A stretch of DNA of 64,000 nt from Luteimonas padinae (GTDB lineage: Bacteria; Pseudomonadota; Gammaproteobacteria; Xanthomonadales; Xanthomonadaceae). The stretch is from positions 1 through 64,000 of the forward strand of contig NZ_BMZT01000009.1 of NCBI RefSeq assembly GCF_014652935.1, given 5' to 3'. Below, piece after piece: positions 34,179 through 41,967 of this stretch (the stretch's first letter is position 1; the number at the start of each line of letters is the position of its first letter). Position numbers and translations under genes: made by a program. A model generated the notes under the pieces. It was given only the letters and a program-made list of their open reading frames with translations. It was not told the origin of the DNA and did no database searches.

Positions 34179-36122
<1,944 letters not shown>

Positions 36123-36186
36123 GGCTGCTCACCTTCCAGGAACGGAAACACCCCAAGTTTGCCGCATTGCAACGAAGCCGCGTTTT

Positions 36187-36200
36187 TAGACCTTCGTCTA
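36187..36200. promoter_or_regulatory. TAGAC...GTCTA palindrome between acs and the peptide cassette
   Basis: tagaccttcgtcta is palindromic over TAGAC/GTCTA with a 4-base centre. A better version, tagaccttggtcta (TAGACC/GGTCTA), stands at 40101-40114 before the DUF294 gene. Both flank acetate-related genes, so a CrbR-type binding site is a reasonable inference. Confidence 0.5.
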
Positions 36201-36285
36201 CCCTTTTGCGCGCCGCAGAGGGTAACGTTCGGCGCTCGGTGGCTAGAAGCCTCCGAAGGATATTCGACGGACATGGAGGCGTCCC

Positions 36286-37107
36286 TTGCAGATGGACCTG
36301 TTGCAGCAATTCGCCGATCGACTCGACTCCGCGTTCGACGCCTCGGGCGTGGACGCCATCGAGGGCAGCGCCGGGGCGCTGGCAGAACTGGCGGCCTCGC
36401 CGGTGATCCCCGCGGCGGTGGCGACGGAGCTCGCCATCCTCGAGCGCGACGGCAATACGAGCGCGGCACAGTGGAACGGCGCCGAACTGGTCCTGGCGGC
36501 CCGCTCACGCTGGCTGCTCGCCGTCTCCTTCTACCGCAACCGCATCGAGAGCACGGTCACCAGCGTTCCGAACGTCGGGCTGGTCAGCCTGCTGTCCGGG
36601 GAAGCGGAAATGACGCTGTTCGACCTCCCCCGCGGATTCGACCCGGACCGCTTCGACCGCCAGGCACGGCTGGGTAGTGCAAGCAGCCACGCACTGGGGG
36701 ACGCGCCGCTCCTGGTCGACGGTCGACGCCACGCGGTCAGGATGAAGGTCGCGCGGCCCAGCGTCGTGCTGCGCCTGTTCTCCAGCCACATTTCCGATTT
36801 CCAGTGGCGCTTCGACGCGGGCACCGGCAAGCCGCTGGACATGTCCGTGGCGCAGCAGTCGGACACCGAGCTGGAGTCGATGATGCAGATGGTCGCGGCC
36901 CTGGGCACTCCGAATGCCACGCAGCTGCTCGAGTCACTGTGCGGGCACCGCAACCATACGATCCGCTGGAAGGCGATCCAGCTGCTCGCCAGGCGTGACC
37001 GCGATGCCGCCATCGAGCGCCTGCACCACGCGACCGGTGACCCGCATCCGGAAATCCGCCATGCCGCCACGACCACCCTGGCGCGGCTCGAAGGAGAACC
37101 CGCCTGA
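36286..37107 (+). CDS. uncharacterised cupin-like/HEAT-repeat protein, peptide cassette gene A
   Basis: I do not recognise a named family. The 273-residue protein has a helical start (1-55), a beta-rich central part (65-175: RSRWLLAVSFYRN, NVGLVSLLSGEAEMTLFDL, RHAVRMKVARPSVVLRLFSS) and two HEAT-like helical repeats at the end (IRWKAIQLLARRDRDAAIERLHH; IRHAATTTLARLE). Its layout parallels gene B, but it lacks the histidine cluster seen there, so it may be a non-catalytic partner. The TTG at 36286 is spaced 6 bases from GGAGG; ATG 36292 is the alternative. Its TGA overlaps gene B's ATG by one base. Confidence 0.6.
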   Translation: MQMDLLQQFADRLDSAFDASGVDAIEGSAGALAELAASPVIPAAVATELAILERDGNTSAAQWNGAELVLAARSRWLLAVSFYRNRIESTVTSVPNVGLVSLLSGEAEMTLFDLPRGFDPDRFDRQARLGSASSHALGDAPLLVDGRRHAVRMKVARPSVVLRLFSSHISDFQWRFDAGTGKPLDMSVAQQSDTELESMMQMVAALGTPNATQLLESLCGHRNHTIRWKAIQLLARRDRDAAIERLHHATGDPHPEIRHAATTTLARLEGEPA

Positions 37108-38003
37108 TGGCCGAAACCATCCACCTTGACCCCGCGGCATCGCCGGCCACCGTCGAGGAAGTCGTCGACTACGTCCACCGCAACGTCGCGCCGCGCGATT
37201 TCGACGCGCTGGTGTCGGCGGCACCCCTGCTGCAGCGCCTCGCGCTGGACACCGCCCTCGTGCACGCGCGGGTGGAGAAGGCGCTCGTGGACATGATCGA
37301 CGGCCGGCGGACCTGCTTCTATACGCCCCAGTCCTTCGTGATCGCGAGCGTCGGCAGCATCCTGCTCCGCGGCAACCTGTGGTGCCCGACGGGCCCGCGC
37401 CGCGGCGTGCGTTCGCCGCGGGACGCGATCTTCTCCTACTACATGGCGCACGACCACAACTACCACTTCCTGACCGTGGGCCAGTTCGGGCCGGGCTACC
37501 TGACGGAGATCTACGAGACCGATCCGCTCGCGCACGACGGCAGGCCCGGGACGACCATCGACATCACGCTGCTGGAAGAGACGGCGCTGCCGACCGGCAA
37601 GGTCATGGCCTACCGCGCACACCGCGACATCCACGTGCAGCTGCCGCCGGACAGCCTCTCGGTGTCGCTGAACCTGATGGTGCGCGACATGCGGAGCGAT
37701 ACGCAGGAGCAGTACGCGTTCGATATCGGCGAGTGCCGCAGCCGGGCCGTGATCACCGGCTATCCCGACGCCTCGCCGGTCAGCGTGCAGGCCAGCCTCG
37801 TGGAGCTGGCCGGGCATCTCCCGGACGCCGGGATCCAGGGCCTGCTCCATGACCTGTGCGGGGCCGACCACATCGCGCCCCGCGTGCGGCGGCACGCCGT
37901 GGAATCCCTGCGCGCTTCCGCGTGGACCGACGAAGACGGGTTGCTGCGCCTGGCACGACGGATCCCCGACTCCAGGCAGTGGGAAGCCAGGCTGCTGGAT
38001 TGA
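37107..38003 (+). CDS. uncharacterised cupin-like protein with histidine cluster, peptide cassette gene B
   Basis: No named family is recognised. The 298-residue protein has helices (1-65), then a beta-rich core with MAHDHNYHFLTVGQFGPGYLTEIYE (His115, His117, His120, Glu134, Glu137) and KVMAYRAHRDIHVQLPPDSLSVSLNL (His172, His176). It ends with HEAT-like helices (RVRRHAVESLRASAWTDEDG). The HxH...E...H spacing suggests a metal-binding double-stranded beta-helix such as a cupin oxygenase. Its partner gene A overlaps it, and the 35-residue peptide gene starts 67 bp after it. It may be the enzyme that modifies that peptide; this is inference. Confidence 0.6.
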   Translation: MAETIHLDPAASPATVEEVVDYVHRNVAPRDFDALVSAAPLLQRLALDTALVHARVEKALVDMIDGRRTCFYTPQSFVIASVGSILLRGNLWCPTGPRRGVRSPRDAIFSYYMAHDHNYHFLTVGQFGPGYLTEIYETDPLAHDGRPGTTIDITLLEETALPTGKVMAYRAHRDIHVQLPPDSLSVSLNLMVRDMRSDTQEQYAFDIGECRSRAVITGYPDASPVSVQASLVELAGHLPDAGIQGLLHDLCGADHIAPRVRRHAVESLRASAWTDEDGLLRLARRIPDSRQWEARLLD

Positions 38004-38070
38004 TCGCGACGCCAGCCGGGTGGCGTCGCACATCCCAACGACCCGGCAAACACACAAGGAGATACAACCG

Positions 38071-38178
38071 ATGGACATCATGGACCTGCAGACCGAAGTG
38101 ATCCCCGCCGGCTGCAACGATGCGGCGATCCACCCGTGGGTCTTCGTGCCGATCTTCGTCTTCATCCCCGCGAACTGA
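38071..38178 (+). CDS. 35-residue candidate precursor peptide
   Basis: The ORF encodes MDIMDLQTEVIPAGCNDAA followed by IHPWVFVPIFVFIPAN. It has a strong AAGGAG site 9 bases before ATG 38071 and its own downstream hairpin, so it looks expressed. The N-terminal half is acidic and leader-like; the C-terminal half has one Cys, one Trp and a repeated aromatic V/I-F-V/I-P pattern. It lies between two uncharacterised enzyme-like genes and an ABC transporter pair, the usual place for a ribosomally made, modified peptide. No known RiPP class fits: there is no GG leader site, no Ser/Thr-rich core and no lasso pattern. Confidence 0.6.
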   Translation: MDIMDLQTEVIPAGCNDAAIHPWVFVPIFVFIPAN

Positions 38179-38186
38179 TCGCGGGT

Positions 38187-38213
38187 CGCCCGCCGTCCTT
38201 CCGGCGGCGGGCG
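38187..38213 (+). terminator. hairpin after the precursor peptide gene
   Basis: CGCCCGCCG and CGGCGGGCG form a 9-bp perfect stem around a 9-nt loop, 9 bases after the peptide stop and 14 bases before the permease start. There is no T-run. Partial termination or mRNA stabilisation here would give more peptide transcript than transporter transcript. Confidence 0.5.
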
Positions 38214-38226
38214 CCACTGCCCGGGC

Positions 38227-39339
38227 ATGCTGGACACGCTGTTCAACCACCGAAGGGCCAACGGCGCGGACATCGTCCGCCTGCCGGTCCGGGATGCATG
38301 GGAGGCCACGCTGGCCCTCGCGGGCGGCGCCGCGCTGGCACTCGTGCTCGCCTACGCCGCCTCGGCGGCAGGCCGCTGGCACCCACTCGCACCGGCCCTG
38401 CTGCTCGCCGTTGCGGGCACGTGGCACGGCACCCGGCTCGGCATCTCGCTGCCGCGGCGGCTGGCGGACGTCGTCTTCGCGCGCTGGATCAGGATCCTTC
38501 CCCTGGACGATGGGATCGCGCTCGCGCAGTGGCGGCGACGGTCGGCGCTTGCCGTGGCGGTCCACGCGCTGCCGTCGGTCGCGGTCGTCGGCGCCGCCGC
38601 CGCGATCGCCGGCCTGCCGCCCACGCAACTCGCCGCCGTCGCACCGCTGTCCTGGTCCACCGCCTGCGCAACGGCGCTGGTCGTCCTGGCGCTCAATCCG
38701 TGGCAACACGCAGGGCGCAGGACGCGGCCTGGAAGGCGCCGGGACCGGCTTCCCGGCCTGCAACTGCTCGAACCCGCCCGCGCACGCCATCTCGGGGCCT
38801 GGCAGGCGCGGCGGAAATGGACGCCATGGACGGGCCTCGTGTTCGCCGCCGGCGCGACGGGTCTCATGGCCGCGGCCCTGGCCGTGGCGAATGCGCGCCA
38901 ACTGGCCTGGCCGGTCCTGGCGACGGCGCTGCTCGTCTCCGTCGCCTTCTTCAACACCTCGCTCGACGGCCGCGTGCTGGCATCGCCGGTCGCGAGGCTG
39001 CTGCCGCTGTCCGGGCCGCAGCGCGTGCGGGTCCTGGTGCACCCGCCCGCACTGGCGTCGCTGGGGCTCCTGCTGGTGGGCGCCTGCAGCCTTGCGTCCA
39101 TCGGCCAGCTGCCGCGGACCCCGATGCCCTGGCTGGCGCTTGGGCTGGCCTGGCTGGCGCTGTGCATGGCCCGCACCGCGGCCTGCCTCGCGGGGTGCGG
39201 CCGCCTCCGGACCGATCTCGAATACATGGCGCTGGTGCTCGGCCTCGCGATGGCGGTCCAGGGCGCGGGCCCGGTCGGCCTGGGCGCGGGGGTGGCGGCC
39301 ACCGCCGCGCTGCTCGTCCGCAGGGCCGCGCGCGCATGA
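38227..39339 (+). CDS. ABC transporter permease-like membrane protein of the peptide cassette
   Basis: The 370-residue protein is very hydrophobic, with about eight to ten membrane segments (for example ATLALAGGAALALVLAYAA, WTGLVFAAGATGLMAAALAV, ALGLAWLALCMARTAACLA) and a basic loop GRRTRPGRRRDRL. No permease family is obvious, but its stop overlaps the ABC ATPase start (ATGA), which makes it the partner of that ATPase. It probably forms the membrane channel exporting, or giving immunity to, the cassette's peptide. The ATG at 38227 has no strong ribosome binding site. Confidence 0.65.
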   Translation: MLDTLFNHRRANGADIVRLPVRDAWEATLALAGGAALALVLAYAASAAGRWHPLAPALLLAVAGTWHGTRLGISLPRRLADVVFARWIRILPLDDGIALAQWRRRSALAVAVHALPSVAVVGAAAAIAGLPPTQLAAVAPLSWSTACATALVVLALNPWQHAGRRTRPGRRRDRLPGLQLLEPARARHLGAWQARRKWTPWTGLVFAAGATGLMAAALAVANARQLAWPVLATALLVSVAFFNTSLDGRVLASPVARLLPLSGPQRVRVLVHPPALASLGLLLVGACSLASIGQLPRTPMPWLALGLAWLALCMARTAACLAGCGRLRTDLEYMALVLGLAMAVQGAGPVGLGAGVAATAALLVRRAARA

Positions 39340-40103
39340 GCGCCGACGCCGCCCTGCTTTCGGTCCACGGCCTGTCGTTCCACTACGGCGCGACGCGCGT
39401 GCTCGACGGCGTCGCGCTCGACGTCGATCCCGGCGAGTGGGTCTGCCTGTACGGACCCAATGGCGCGGGCAAGTCCACCCTGCTGCATTGCATCGTGGGC
39501 CTGGCACACCCGGACCCGGGCGCACGGGTGCTGCATGCGGGCCGTGCGCTTGAAGACGATCCGGTCGCGGTCCGCCGCGCCACGCACTTCGCCGTGGGAC
39601 CGGACGACGTCCCGGGCGAGCTTTCGCCCGCGCAGTACCTGGAGCTGGTCGCGTCCGCCCACGGCGTCGTCGGCCCCGGCCGCGTCGCATCCGGACTGAT
39701 CGAAGGCTTCGCCCTTGGCCCGCACATGCACAAGCGCCTGTCCCGCTGCTCGCTCGGCACCCGGCAGAAGGCCGCCATCGTCGCCGCCTTCGTCGGCCAG
39801 CCGTCGCTCGTGGTCCTGGACGAGCCGTTCAACGGCCTCGACGCGGAGAGCCTCATGGCGGCCAAGCGCATCTTCAGCGACTTCGCGCGCACCGGTGCCA
39901 TCCTGATGGCCAGCCACGGCATCGAGATCGTCGCCGAGTGGTGCAGCCGGATCGACCATCTGGCCGGCGGCCGCATCCGCGATCGCATCGACCTGGTCGA
40001 CTGGCGTGCGCGGGGACGGTCCGTGCGCGCGCTGGAAGAACAGCTGCTGCCGCGGCGGGAGCTTGGCGCCGACGCGCAGACGACGCTGCGCGGCACGGTT
40101 TAG
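39336..40103 (+). CDS. ABC transporter ATP-binding protein of the peptide cassette
   Basis: The 255-residue ATPase has Walker A YGPNGAGKSTLLHC (about 40-50), a degenerate signature LSRCSLGTRQKAAIV, Walker B LVVLDEPFNGLD and the switch histidine in MASHGIEIV. It resembles the ATPases of bacteriocin/antibiotic export and immunity systems. Its ATG overlaps the permease stop by 4 bp. Its TAG stop (40101-40103) is also the first three bases of the TAGACC palindrome, so the cassette ends exactly at the edge of the acetate-type operator. Confidence 0.88.
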   Translation: MSADAALLSVHGLSFHYGATRVLDGVALDVDPGEWVCLYGPNGAGKSTLLHCIVGLAHPDPGARVLHAGRALEDDPVAVRRATHFAVGPDDVPGELSPAQYLELVASAHGVVGPGRVASGLIEGFALGPHMHKRLSRCSLGTRQKAAIVAAFVGQPSLVVLDEPFNGLDAESLMAAKRIFSDFARTGAILMASHGIEIVAEWCSRIDHLAGGRIRDRIDLVDWRARGRSVRALEEQLLPRRELGADAQTTLRGTV

Positions 40104-40114
40104 ACCTTGGTCTA
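40101..40114. promoter_or_regulatory. perfect TAGACC-TT-GGTCTA palindrome before the DUF294 gene
   Basis: The 14-base site is a perfect inverted repeat with a two-base centre, 35 bp upstream of the DUF294 start. It shares TAGACCTT and GTCTA with 36187-36200 upstream of acs. A common regulator of acs and the DUF294/exonuclease pair is likely. Confidence 0.55.
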
Positions 40115-40149
40115 TTCGCCCCGGGGCGCGGGGCACGCACAATGCGGCC

Positions 40150-41967
40150 ATGGACCCCGTGCCCGGCCTGGACCTCAGCCTGCCGCCGTTCGACCTGCTC
40201 GACGACGCCGGTCGCCAGCGCCTGCAGGCGGACGTCGACATCGGCTTCCATCCCGGCGGCAGCACCCTGATCGAGGCCGGGCGTGATTCGCCGCACGTGG
40301 TTGTCATCCTCAAGGGCCTGGTCCACGCGTTCCAGGTGGACGACCGCGGGCGCGCGGAGCGCTTCGCCGACTACGGGCCGGGCGACGTCATCGGCGCCTG
40401 GGCGGTCATGGCCGGGCGCGCCCGCCTGAGCTACCGCGCCGAGGGCGACTGCCTGAGCCACCTGATCCCGGCCGCCACCTTCCGCCAGCTGCTGGCCGAC
40501 AACCCGCGCATGGCGGCGTACTTCAACGAGGGGCTGGCGACCAAGGGCCGGCTCTCCAGCGGCAGCGAACGCCGCGAGGCCGCCGAGCTGATGGTGATCC
40601 GGGTCGGCGAGGCCGACCTGGCGCCGGCCGAGCGCGTGGACGGCGCGACCAGCATCGCCGACGCGAGCGCCCGCCTGCGCGAACGCCGCGTGGACTGCCT
40701 GCTGGTCTATGACCGGGAGCAGGACGCGCCGGGCATCGTCACCCGTACCGACCTGCTGGAAGCGCTGACCCACAAGCGCCTGCCGCTGGACGCCCCGATC
40801 GGCCCGCTGGCCAGTCGCCCGCTGGCCACCATCGGCACCGGCGAAGTGCTGTTCCAGGCCCTGATCGAGATGACCGAGCGCCAGATCGAGCGAGTGGTGG
40901 TCACCGAGGGCAGCCGGGTGGCGGGCACCCTGGGCATGGCCGAAGTGCTGGCCCACTTCGCCAGCCACTCCCACCTGATCAGCCTGCGCCTGGCGCGCGC
41001 GCAGAGCGTCGACGAGATCGCCGAAGCCGCATCGGGCATGACCCGGCTGGTGCGCAGTCTCAACCTGCACGGCGCGCGCATCCCCTACATGATGGAGCTG
41101 GTCAGCGCGCTCAACGGCCTGATCATGCGCCGGATCTTCGAGCTGGCGGTGCCGGCGGAGCGGCGTGACGGCGTCTGCCTGCTGGTGATGGGCAGCGAGG
41201 GCCGCCGCGAACAGCTGCTCAAGACCGACCAGGACAACGCCCTGGTGCTGGCCGACGACCTCGACTGGCCCGGGCTCGCCGAGGCGATGGAGCAGTTCAG
41301 CGCGGGGCTGGCGAAGGTCGGCTATCCGCCCTGCCCCGGCCGGGTGATGGTGGACAACCCGCACTGGCGGATGCGCGGCGGCGAGTGGCGGGAGCGCATC
41401 GGCCAGTGGCGCCACGTGCACGGCGGGCAGGGCGCGCTGGACCTGTCGATCGCGCTCGATGCGCGGCCGATCGCCGGCAACGCAGCGCTGTTCATACCGG
41501 TCAAGGAGGCGCTGATGGCGCTGGGGCGCGACGAGATCCTGCTCCACCACCTGGCCGGCGCCACGCTCGAATTCGCGACCCCGCTGACCTTCTTCGGCCG
41601 GGTCAGGAGCGGTGGCGCCGGCACCGACATCAAGAAGGGCGGCATCTTCCCGGTGGTGCACGGCCTGCGCTGCCTGGCGCTGCGACACGGCATCGGTGCC
41701 ACCGGCAGCCGCGAACGCTGCGCCGCGCTGGTGGAATGCGGCGAGCTCTCGCCCGGCCTCGGCCGCGACCTGCCGCAGGCGCTCAACGTGTTCCAGCACA
41801 TGCGCCTGGACGCCCAGTTCGCGGCGTTGGCCGAAGGCCGCGCGCCGGACAACCACATCGACCCCGCACGGCTGCGGCGCCTGGACCGCGAGCTGATGCG
41901 CGACGCCCTGCACGTGGTCAAGGACTTCCGCGCCCACGTCCGCAGCAGCTTCCACCTGCGTGACTAG
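40150..41967 (+). CDS. cNMP-binding / CBS / DUF294 putative nucleotidyltransferase
   Basis: The 605-residue protein has an N-terminal cyclic-nucleotide-binding-like domain (1-130, with STLIEAGRDSPHVVVILKG), a CBS pair (about 150-270: RRVDCLLVYDREQDAPGIVTRTDLL, RVAGTLGMAEVLAHF), and a DUF294 nucleotidyltransferase core with MGSEGRREQLLKTDQDNALVL, where GS and DxD are visible. A DUF294_C helical end follows. Relatives sit beside acetate-uptake genes and a DnaQ-like exonuclease in pseudomonads; a signalling role is assumed. ATG 40150 is chosen over an in-frame upstream start that would overlap the ATPase gene. Confidence 0.9.
   Translation: MDPVPGLDLSLPPFDLLDDAGRQRLQADVDIGFHPGGSTLIEAGRDSPHVVVILKGLVHAFQVDDRGRAERFADYGPGDVIGAWAVMAGRARLSYRAEGDCLSHLIPAATFRQLLADNPRMAAYFNEGLATKGRLSSGSERREAAELMVIRVGEADLAPAERVDGATSIADASARLRERRVDCLLVYDREQDAPGIVTRTDLLEALTHKRLPLDAPIGPLASRPLATIGTGEVLFQALIEMTERQIERVVVTEGSRVAGTLGMAEVLAHFASHSHLISLRLARAQSVDEIAEAASGMTRLVRSLNLHGARIPYMMELVSALNGLIMRRIFELAVPAERRDGVCLLVMGSEGRREQLLKTDQDNALVLADDLDWPGLAEAMEQFSAGLAKVGYPPCPGRVMVDNPHWRMRGGEWRERIGQWRHVHGGQGALDLSIALDARPIAGNAALFIPVKEALMALGRDEILLHHLAGATLEFATPLTFFGRVRSGGAGTDIKKGGIFPVVHGLRCLALRHGIGATGSRERCAALVECGELSPGLGRDLPQALNVFQHMRLDAQFAALAEGRAPDNHIDPARLRRLDRELMRDALHVVKDFRAHVRSSFHLRD

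Follow-up and report, generated by a model that had tools for sequence, protein, structure and literature searches.

The first 64,000 nucleotides of contig NZ_BMZT01000009.1 of Luteimonas padinae (RefSeq assembly GCF_014652935.1; genome of 3.1 Mb), to which we refer as the window, contain a cassette of five genes that all run in the same direction: genes A and B, a gene for a peptide of 35 residues, and the genes for the permease and the ATPase of an ATP-binding cassette (ABC) transporter (Table 1). A sequence-only reading of the window had singled out this stretch, from 36286 to 40114, as a putative system for a ribosomally synthesized and post-translationally modified peptide (RiPP). All five open reading frames (ORFs) are present as described, with overlaps or small gaps between them, the downstream pair is a permease and an ATPase on the grounds given in Table 1, and the limits proposed for the cassette nearly coincide with the boundaries of an insert discussed below. 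By its anatomy the cassette is RiPP-like, with enzymes of an unfamiliar kind and a peptide that belongs to an apparently undescribed family.

Table 1. Positions of the cassette genes and of the features associated with them in the window.
Feature	Position	Strand	Basis or remark
Left copy of the 14-bp inverted repeat, TAGACCTTCGTCTA	36187-36200		left edge of insert; ACTU-like
Gene A	36286-37107	+	TTG start 6 nt after GGAGG; alternative ATG at 36292
Gene B	37107-38003	+	1-nt overlap with A
Ribosome binding site of the peptide gene, AAGGAGA	38056-38062	+	sequence; AAGGAG ends 9 nt before ATG
Putative precursor peptide, 35 residues, MDIMDLQTEVIPAGCNDAAIHPWVFVPIFVFIPAN	38071-38178	+	ORF, family membership, profile rank
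Stem-loop, 11-bp stem, between peptide stop and permease	38187-38213	+	folding
ABC permease subunit	38227-39339	+	position and ~8 hydrophobic segments; no Pfam family
ABC ATPase	39336-40103	+	ABC_tran, E = 1.1e-18; 4-nt overlap with permease
Right copy of the 14-bp repeat, TAGACCTTGGTCTA	40101-40114		overlaps ATPase stop codon

The short ORF had been credited with a strong ribosome binding site and with a hairpin of its own. The former stands, and the GC (guanine plus cytosine) content at codon positions 1/2/3 of the 35-codon frame (0.57/0.34/0.94) follows a coding pattern; the stem after the peptide stop is, in the window, only weakly beyond shuffled sequences (z = −2.1 for a shorter stretch, −1.5 in a set of 12 loci). 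The stretch behind the peptide has z below −2.5 in 7 of the 12 loci folded, the window not being among the seven. Neither sigma-70 promoters nor intrinsic terminators were found in a scan of 36000-40300. HEAT repeats aside, A, B, the peptide and the permease could not be assigned to an informative family of Pfam, NCBIfam, PHROG or PADLOC: PHROGs gave no match for any of the four, and in the PADLOC scan, which covered the same four proteins, the HEAT-ARM model matched residues 187-270 of A only (E = 3.1e-7) and the other three had no match, so that nothing beyond this shared repeat points to a known anti-phage defence system. A scan of IMG/VR with B alone returned nothing. The five proteins contain none of the hallmark enzymes of lanthipeptides, lasso peptides or sactipeptides in the Pfam and NCBIfam scans (LanB/LanM, asparagine-synthase-like cyclase, radical SAM), in line with the earlier exclusion of these classes, and the same holds for DUF692, the family of the MNIO enzymes. 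Among the 25 of 187 NCBIfam families listed for the ATPase, all are transporter ATPases or ABC-F.

A scan of genome contigs with B provided the loci for comparison: the best 80 of 158 relatives form the locus set, which with the window amounts to 81 loci. A frame in the place and direction of A lies ahead of B in 77/80 loci (by position alone), and 72 of 75 A proteins are recognized, with E<1e-5, by a profile built without them; in the three that fail this held-out test (L020, L026 and L039) the frame or the start may be wrong. When the short ORFs near B were clustered without a model, the second-largest cluster turned out to be the peptide, present in 50/80 loci and recognizable by a shared N-terminus, the largest one (61 ORFs from 44 loci) being a noise group of mixed, compositionally biased ORFs. 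A profile from which the window peptide had been left out finds members in 66/81 loci at E<0.01; if we add the window, L055 (which a place filter had removed), and L036 and L046 (both assigned by eye), the peptide stands beside A and B in 70/81 loci. The frame of 35 residues is itself a member of this family. Among the 501 short ORFs of the window it ranks first with either of two profiles built without it (E = 0.006 and 0.014, with the next-best ORFs at 0.39 and 4.1), one of them built from a group chosen as nearest to the window and the other not. In the tree of B the window forms a clade with L018, L019 and L020 (support 100/97), and three members of this clade carry the peptide directly behind B, like the window; it is on profile scores, place and the clade of its B together that the membership of the window peptide rests. 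Outside the set of 80, the peptide is present in four of four Sphingomonadales loci with E of 3.2e-11 or better (this test comprised eight loci, of which the four already among the 80 are not counted). Short ORFs with the look of the peptide are also seen by eye beside A and B in Alteromonas L014, in G142 and in both loci of G039; the candidates are weaker in G073 and in a Vibrio plasmid, and none was picked out in G030.

In the 82 peptides of the family the N-terminal part follows a common pattern, in which a conserved D is followed at constant positions by [LI]-P-x-L-[DE], V, [GA] and G; in the main columns L accounts for 93%, G for 81%, P for 68%, D for 60% and V for 59% of the letters, and the window peptide keeps the L, V and G. 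The C-terminal part is variable, with a hydrophobic fraction of 0.55 vs 0.46 in the first 20 residues; among Erythrobacteraceae-type peptides a C-terminal stretch, DDTIVVIxTIVYE-PPG, is conserved. Judged by these features, the peptides look like bipartite precursors with a conserved leader and a variable core, and a short precursor gene conserved next to what appear to be dedicated enzymes is typical of RiPP systems. The claim of a RiPP system is thus upheld as regards the conservation of the peptide beside A and B in distant genomes, while modification of the peptide would be a further step. In 28 non-independent pairs of equally long peptides from other genomes, with 60-97% identity within a pair, the mean pS is 0.43 vs a pN of 0.16; as synonymous changes exceed replacement changes, selection acts on the peptide as a protein, and the orthologues in other genomes show the mark of purifying selection. 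These data bear on the possibility that the short ORF has no functional tie to A and B, being either a leader ORF with a regulatory role or a neighbour by chance. The ORF had been expected at the same place in homologous cassettes, and its side in fact varies by lineage, upstream of A in 61 loci and downstream of B in 9 (in three of them ~3.4 kb away); a stem-loop also lies behind the ORF in several loci. However, one and the same peptide family accompanies A and B on either side, and together with the excess of synonymous changes this makes an untied ORF hardly credible.

A locus of Lysobacter selenitireducens (L061, 5386-5886) has three consecutive precursor peptides; where two of them read VGGVC, the third reads EPVT, a hint that Cys and Thr may be alternatives at the start of the core.

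The two upstream proteins had been described as cupin/HEAT-like. In sequence, this is borne out by the C-terminal repeats of A (Pfam HEAT_2, E = 4.4e-8), whereas the HEAT match of B is marginal (E = 0.022) and the cupin assignment of both is backed by predicted structure and by no sequence family. The AlphaFold2 models, for which 75 A and 80 B proteins were aligned, are confident, with predicted local distance difference test (pLDDT) scores of 94.5 for A and 92.4 for B, and are alike in layout, with helices at both ends and a run of beta strands between them. Thiol dioxygenases are top-ranked by Foldseek for both (4tlf at E = 1.5e-7 for A and 6.2e-7 for B), and in VIA the comparison with mercaptosuccinate dioxygenase 8vni gives Z = 14.7 for A (3.1 Å over 163 residues; tied with 4qma) and Z = 14.5 for B (3.3 Å over 167 residues). 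A comparison of the A and B profiles with hhalign (probability 98, E = 1.8e-13) extends over 272 columns, and on this ground the two are paralogues. The check by profile and structure that had been suggested for these proteins thus leads to a pair of paralogues, each predicted to consist of a cupin of thiol-dioxygenase-like fold and a HEAT or HEAT-like C-terminus. Among PDB chains, the sequence of B has no match up to E = 5, its profile matches a designed HEAT protein alone (E = 0.008) plus weaker chance matches, and the profile of A matches HEAT-type proteins over the C-terminal repeats; Pfam CDO_I and PCO_ADO have no match in A or B up to E = 1.

With such neighbours in fold, B could be a plain protein thiol dioxygenase that converts a cysteine of the peptide to sulfinic acid, the reaction by which the plant cysteine oxidases (PCO) and ADO oxidize cysteine. 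The nearest folds do include PCO and ADO, and the peptides comprise a set with GG-x-x-C or GG-x-C at the start of the core; the window peptide has Cys15. Against this, Cys occurs in the last 28 residues of only 24/82 peptides and anywhere in 35/82, and B is conserved regardless. Since most precursors have no core cysteine, plain thiol oxidation is unlikely as the common reaction, and we regard this identity of B as very improbable.

The alignment of B (A4) comprises 79 of the 80 loci and the window, with L083 left out. R88, W92, Y111, H115, H117, N118, G128, G130, Y131, D174, H176, Q178 and Q202 are identical in 80/80 of its rows, which were collected by patterns over the HDHN and TVGYxGxGY stretches and then picked by a motif over them; R88, W92, Y111, D174, H176, Q178 and Q202 were not used in the collection. 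In ten further proteins, found by whole-protein search with no motif, R88, W92, Y111, H115, H117, G128, G130, Y131, H176 and Q178 are invariant (10/10). A non-significant profile alignment puts H115-D-H117 of B on the HDH of cysteine dioxygenase (CDO) and H176 on its third His, and B would accordingly contain a three-His metal site, HxH...H, with its position taken from that alignment. The corresponding alignment of A (A5; 74 of the 80 loci and the window) has no column with His in more than 55% of its 75 rows, the two highest lying in the HEAT part: A appears to be without a conserved metal site, and a paralogue without ligands fits the part of helper that had been assigned to it. As for B, previously read as a metal enzyme acting on the peptide, its predicted fold and conserved histidines make it probable that the features of a metal enzyme are kept; its substrate may be the peptide.

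The same residues are relevant to an explanation in which the peptide stays unmodified, as a secreted bacteriocin or signal, A and B combine in a soluble complex to bind, chaperone or neutralize it until export, and the metal site has a structural role or is a vestige. Serving as a binding scaffold is common for HEAT repeats, the hydrophobic C-termini have no conserved target residue, and the two or three peptides of L061, L058, L060, L066 and L069 are reminiscent of multi-peptide bacteriocins, all of which would suit such a complex. The fixation of R88, W92, Y111, H176 and Q178 in both sets of B, 80/80 and 10/10, would not, as none of these residues was used in collection: it suggests catalysis by B over mere binding, and leaves an unmodified peptide as an unlikely explanation.

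The arrival of the cassette was examined in ten same-genus regions chosen around the downstream DUF294 gene. In five of them (G018, G044, G050, G012 and G027) acs directly adjoins DUF294 and the cassette is absent; these regions align to the window until ~36200 and resume at 40084-40099, with matches that touch or overlap by ~20-30 nt, and in G018 the flanks of the insertion site are 95-98% identical to the window. The other five regions are uninformative, because the DUF294 side alone aligns or acs lies kilobases off (G032). Given the empty site in these relatives, genes A and B, the peptide, the permease and the ATPase are parts of a single insert, and the five-gene unit entered as one, from ~36200 to 40100. 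The GC content of the insert (0.715) and of its flanks (0.70-0.71) is alike. The 14-bp repeat, TAGACCTTSGTCTA, occurs in two copies in the window vs one in the junction stretch of each of the five empty-site relatives, and was also aligned for three of these; the second copy may have been duplicated by the insert or brought along by it. Near acs the window encodes a hybrid histidine kinase and a LuxR-type regulator, which we take to be CrbS/CrbR. The repeat resembles the ACTU motif of acetate-utilisation promoters, as this motif is given in PMC5715377, where it is required for the activation of acs by CrbR. Between the ACTU-like left copy and gene A lie 85 nt, and acetate may accordingly control the cassette through a CrbR-type site.

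The order A-B-peptide-permease-ATPase of the window recurs in Silanimonas (L018), in G142 and in Xanthomonas (L025 and L053), which amounts to four independent cases, L025 and L053 being near-copies. The peptide also comes after B in L019 and L020 of Lysobacter, where no ABC ATPase was found behind it. The window permease has no significant BLAST similarity to the permease regions of Silanimonas, G142 and Xanthomonas; its eight hydrophobic segments are ordered alike in the window and in Silanimonas. Nine transporter queries match 21/81 loci, with an ABC ATPase on the strand of B in at least 14, a lower bound in view of the short flanks at some loci and of the number of queries. Export or immunity had been assigned to the ABC pair; with a same-strand ATPase detected in only 14/81 loci this becomes a local feature, and the transporter is, as far as these loci indicate, an accessory rather than a defining part.

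A different arrangement prevails in ~18-20 Sphingomonadales loci, where a peptide-A-B unit lies between one and the same set of chromosomal genes (the neighbours, named by reading and not by search, are argH, lysA, siroheme-type, DUF3089-type, lepB and pdxJ). B is found in 56/196 Sphingomonadales genomes, one of these being a HEAT-only match, and on this basis a widespread unnoticed peptide product may exist in the order; near the window it is rarer (6/150 relatives and 2/369 genomes of the class, the genome of the window being included in both). The constant chromosomal place, the frequency of B, the absence of a detected same-strand ABC ATPase from most Sphingomonadales loci and the conserved C-terminal stretch of the Erythrobacteraceae-type peptides are what one might expect if the product acted inside the cell, as a peptide-derived cofactor, a metal ligand or an internal signal, to which the ABC pair would be a local add-on. 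Because no ABC pair was detected in most loci, such an internal role deserves consideration; but the unit is accompanied by a transporter in the window, Silanimonas, G142 and Xanthomonas, the cores differ widely among lineages, and no dependent partner enzyme is evident, and we hold it to be distinctly unlikely.

The reading that we prefer, and that we consider somewhat better than an even bet, is that of a RiPP-like cassette in which B, aided by the pseudoenzyme A, oxidizes the peptide, while the ABC pair of the window serves to export the product or to protect its producer. The 35-residue peptide would be the precursor, with approximately its first half as leader and its hydrophobic C-terminus as core. 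The paralogous cupin-HEAT proteins A and B would work together: A, without metal ligands, would hold the leader or scaffold the complex, and B would bind a metal, most likely Fe(II), via H115, H117 and H176, and use O2 to oxidize a target residue of the core. On this reading, A is a probable partner or leader binder and B a probable metal-dependent oxidase of the peptide. In more general terms, we put forward, with slightly less than even confidence, a RiPP class built on a B of thiol-dioxygenase fold and its pseudoenzyme paralogue A, each with HEAT repeats fused to it; the three-His iron site would have been turned from thiols to the thiol-independent oxidation of residues in hydrophobic peptides, and the class would have long resided at one chromosomal place in Sphingomonadales and be mobile in gammaproteobacteria.

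A number of observations weigh against the oxidation of the peptide by B. As regards the peptide, the count of 66 loci is partly circular, since many of those peptides trained the profile; the window peptide scores less well in larger sets (E = 0.13 with a seed of 12 sequences and 716 candidates, 0.081 with 2985 candidates); the core has no residue that all peptides share; and no peptidase domain was found by Pfam in the five cassette proteins, the ATPase included (the rest of the genome was not searched). As regards the enzyme, hhalign against a CDO alignment of 13 rows (L106 and L113 left out for a wrongly picked frame) gives a probability of 0.1 for B and of 17.9, with E = 0.0014, for A; as the profiles do not join them, B is likened to cysteine dioxygenase only through its predicted fold and the aligned HDH...H. 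The 80/80 conservation of H115, H117, N118, G128, G130 and Y131 is in part a product of the motif-based collection. At the positions aligned to the Ser-His-Tyr catalytic set of cysteine dioxygenase, the residues of B are S/T (80/80), N (73/80) and M (62/80); with neither this set nor Pfam CDO_I/PCO_ADO membership found in B, we do not file it as a thiol dioxygenase. As regards the loci, homologues of A and B had been expected to occur regularly with both a short ORF and a transporter, and while the former is mostly kept, the nine queries detected no same-strand ABC ATPase in 67/81 loci. The peptide itself was not detected in 11/81 loci: L031 and L064, in which B is near a contig end, L083, in which B is truncated in the ORF calls, L094, whose short ORF upstream of A has no profile support, and seven Nevskia-like loci (L037, L038, L042, L044, L049, L054 and L070). 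These seven form a clade inside the Nevskia rows of the tree, and together with L094 they keep A and B without a supported peptide; a search for the Nevskia-type peptide in the eight genomes was negative (0/8), and the peptide was found in the genome of L021, the positive control.

Among known systems, the CDO-type cupins, that is, the cysteine, 3-mercaptopropionate and mercaptosuccinate dioxygenases (8vni, 4tlf, 6xb9), resemble the predicted fold of A and B (VIA Z = 12.2-14.5 for B and 13.0-14.7 for A, Bacillus YubC aside) and have the HDH...H arrangement in common with B. They differ in that CDO_I is not matched by A or B and the Ser-His-Tyr triad is replaced in B, and A and B have in addition the C-terminal HEAT domain, the pairing and the adjoining peptide gene. 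The plant cysteine oxidases and human ADO, also like B in fold (VIA Z = 11.2-12.7), act on the N-terminal Cys of proteins: their substrate is a peptide or protein and not a free thiol, a further likeness, whereas the precursors of the cassette have no conserved Cys. Daptides have short precursors with hydrophobic cores, and are set apart, by description only, by enzymes other than those of the cassette. PbsQ/BpmG, which PMC12257519 describes as JmjC-type cupin hydroxylases in biphenomycin-like RiPP clusters, offer the likeness of a cupin-fold oxygenase acting on a RiPP precursor; they are JmjC relatives accompanied by MNIO, B12-radical-SAM and arginase proteins, and none of these families was matched in the five cassette proteins. 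The MNIO (DUF692) enzymes, according to the same source, likewise combine an iron oxidase with a partner protein on a short precursor, but the cassette has no DUF692 match, and its A and B are both cupins and mutual paralogues. TMcins, compared here by their description in PMC13252029, likewise have short precursors with hydrophobic, membrane-like cores; the same description sets them apart by their occurrence in Gram-positive bacteria and by their intramembrane processing proteins.

In the open-access literature, among the matches listed, there was no description of the cassette, nor of a thiol-dioxygenase-fold or HEAT-fused pair in RiPP pathways. If the oxidation of the peptide by B with the help of A is true, it would represent a new RiPP enzyme scaffold, a thiol-dioxygenase-like cupin in the form of an enzyme/pseudoenzyme pair, which goes unseen by the profile libraries used. 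The list of precursors and the leader motif make the function of this cupin family directly testable.

Individual loci show further variations. L066 (Sphingomonas) and L069 (Polymorphobacter) contain tandem A-B pairs, with two peptides per locus. In a plasmid of Alteromonas stellipolaris (L014, 3600-7885) two peptides precede A and follow a macrolide-type ABC transporter set; similar pairs of peptides are present in G039 and L060. In a plasmid of Vibrio sp. ED002 (L015, 6264-7820) there is an A-B pair near restriction-modification genes and a Tn3 transposase, with an annotated ORF of 59 residues overlapping the end of B. The B of Silanimonas (L018, 6833-7621) is short, 262 residues, and the match of the B profile crosses two TGA codons, so that its C-terminal repeats are perhaps broken. 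In the window itself, well beyond the cassette, the GC content falls from ~0.72 to 0.48 between 58000 and 64000, with a positive GC skew, and this region resembles a foreign island or mobile element.

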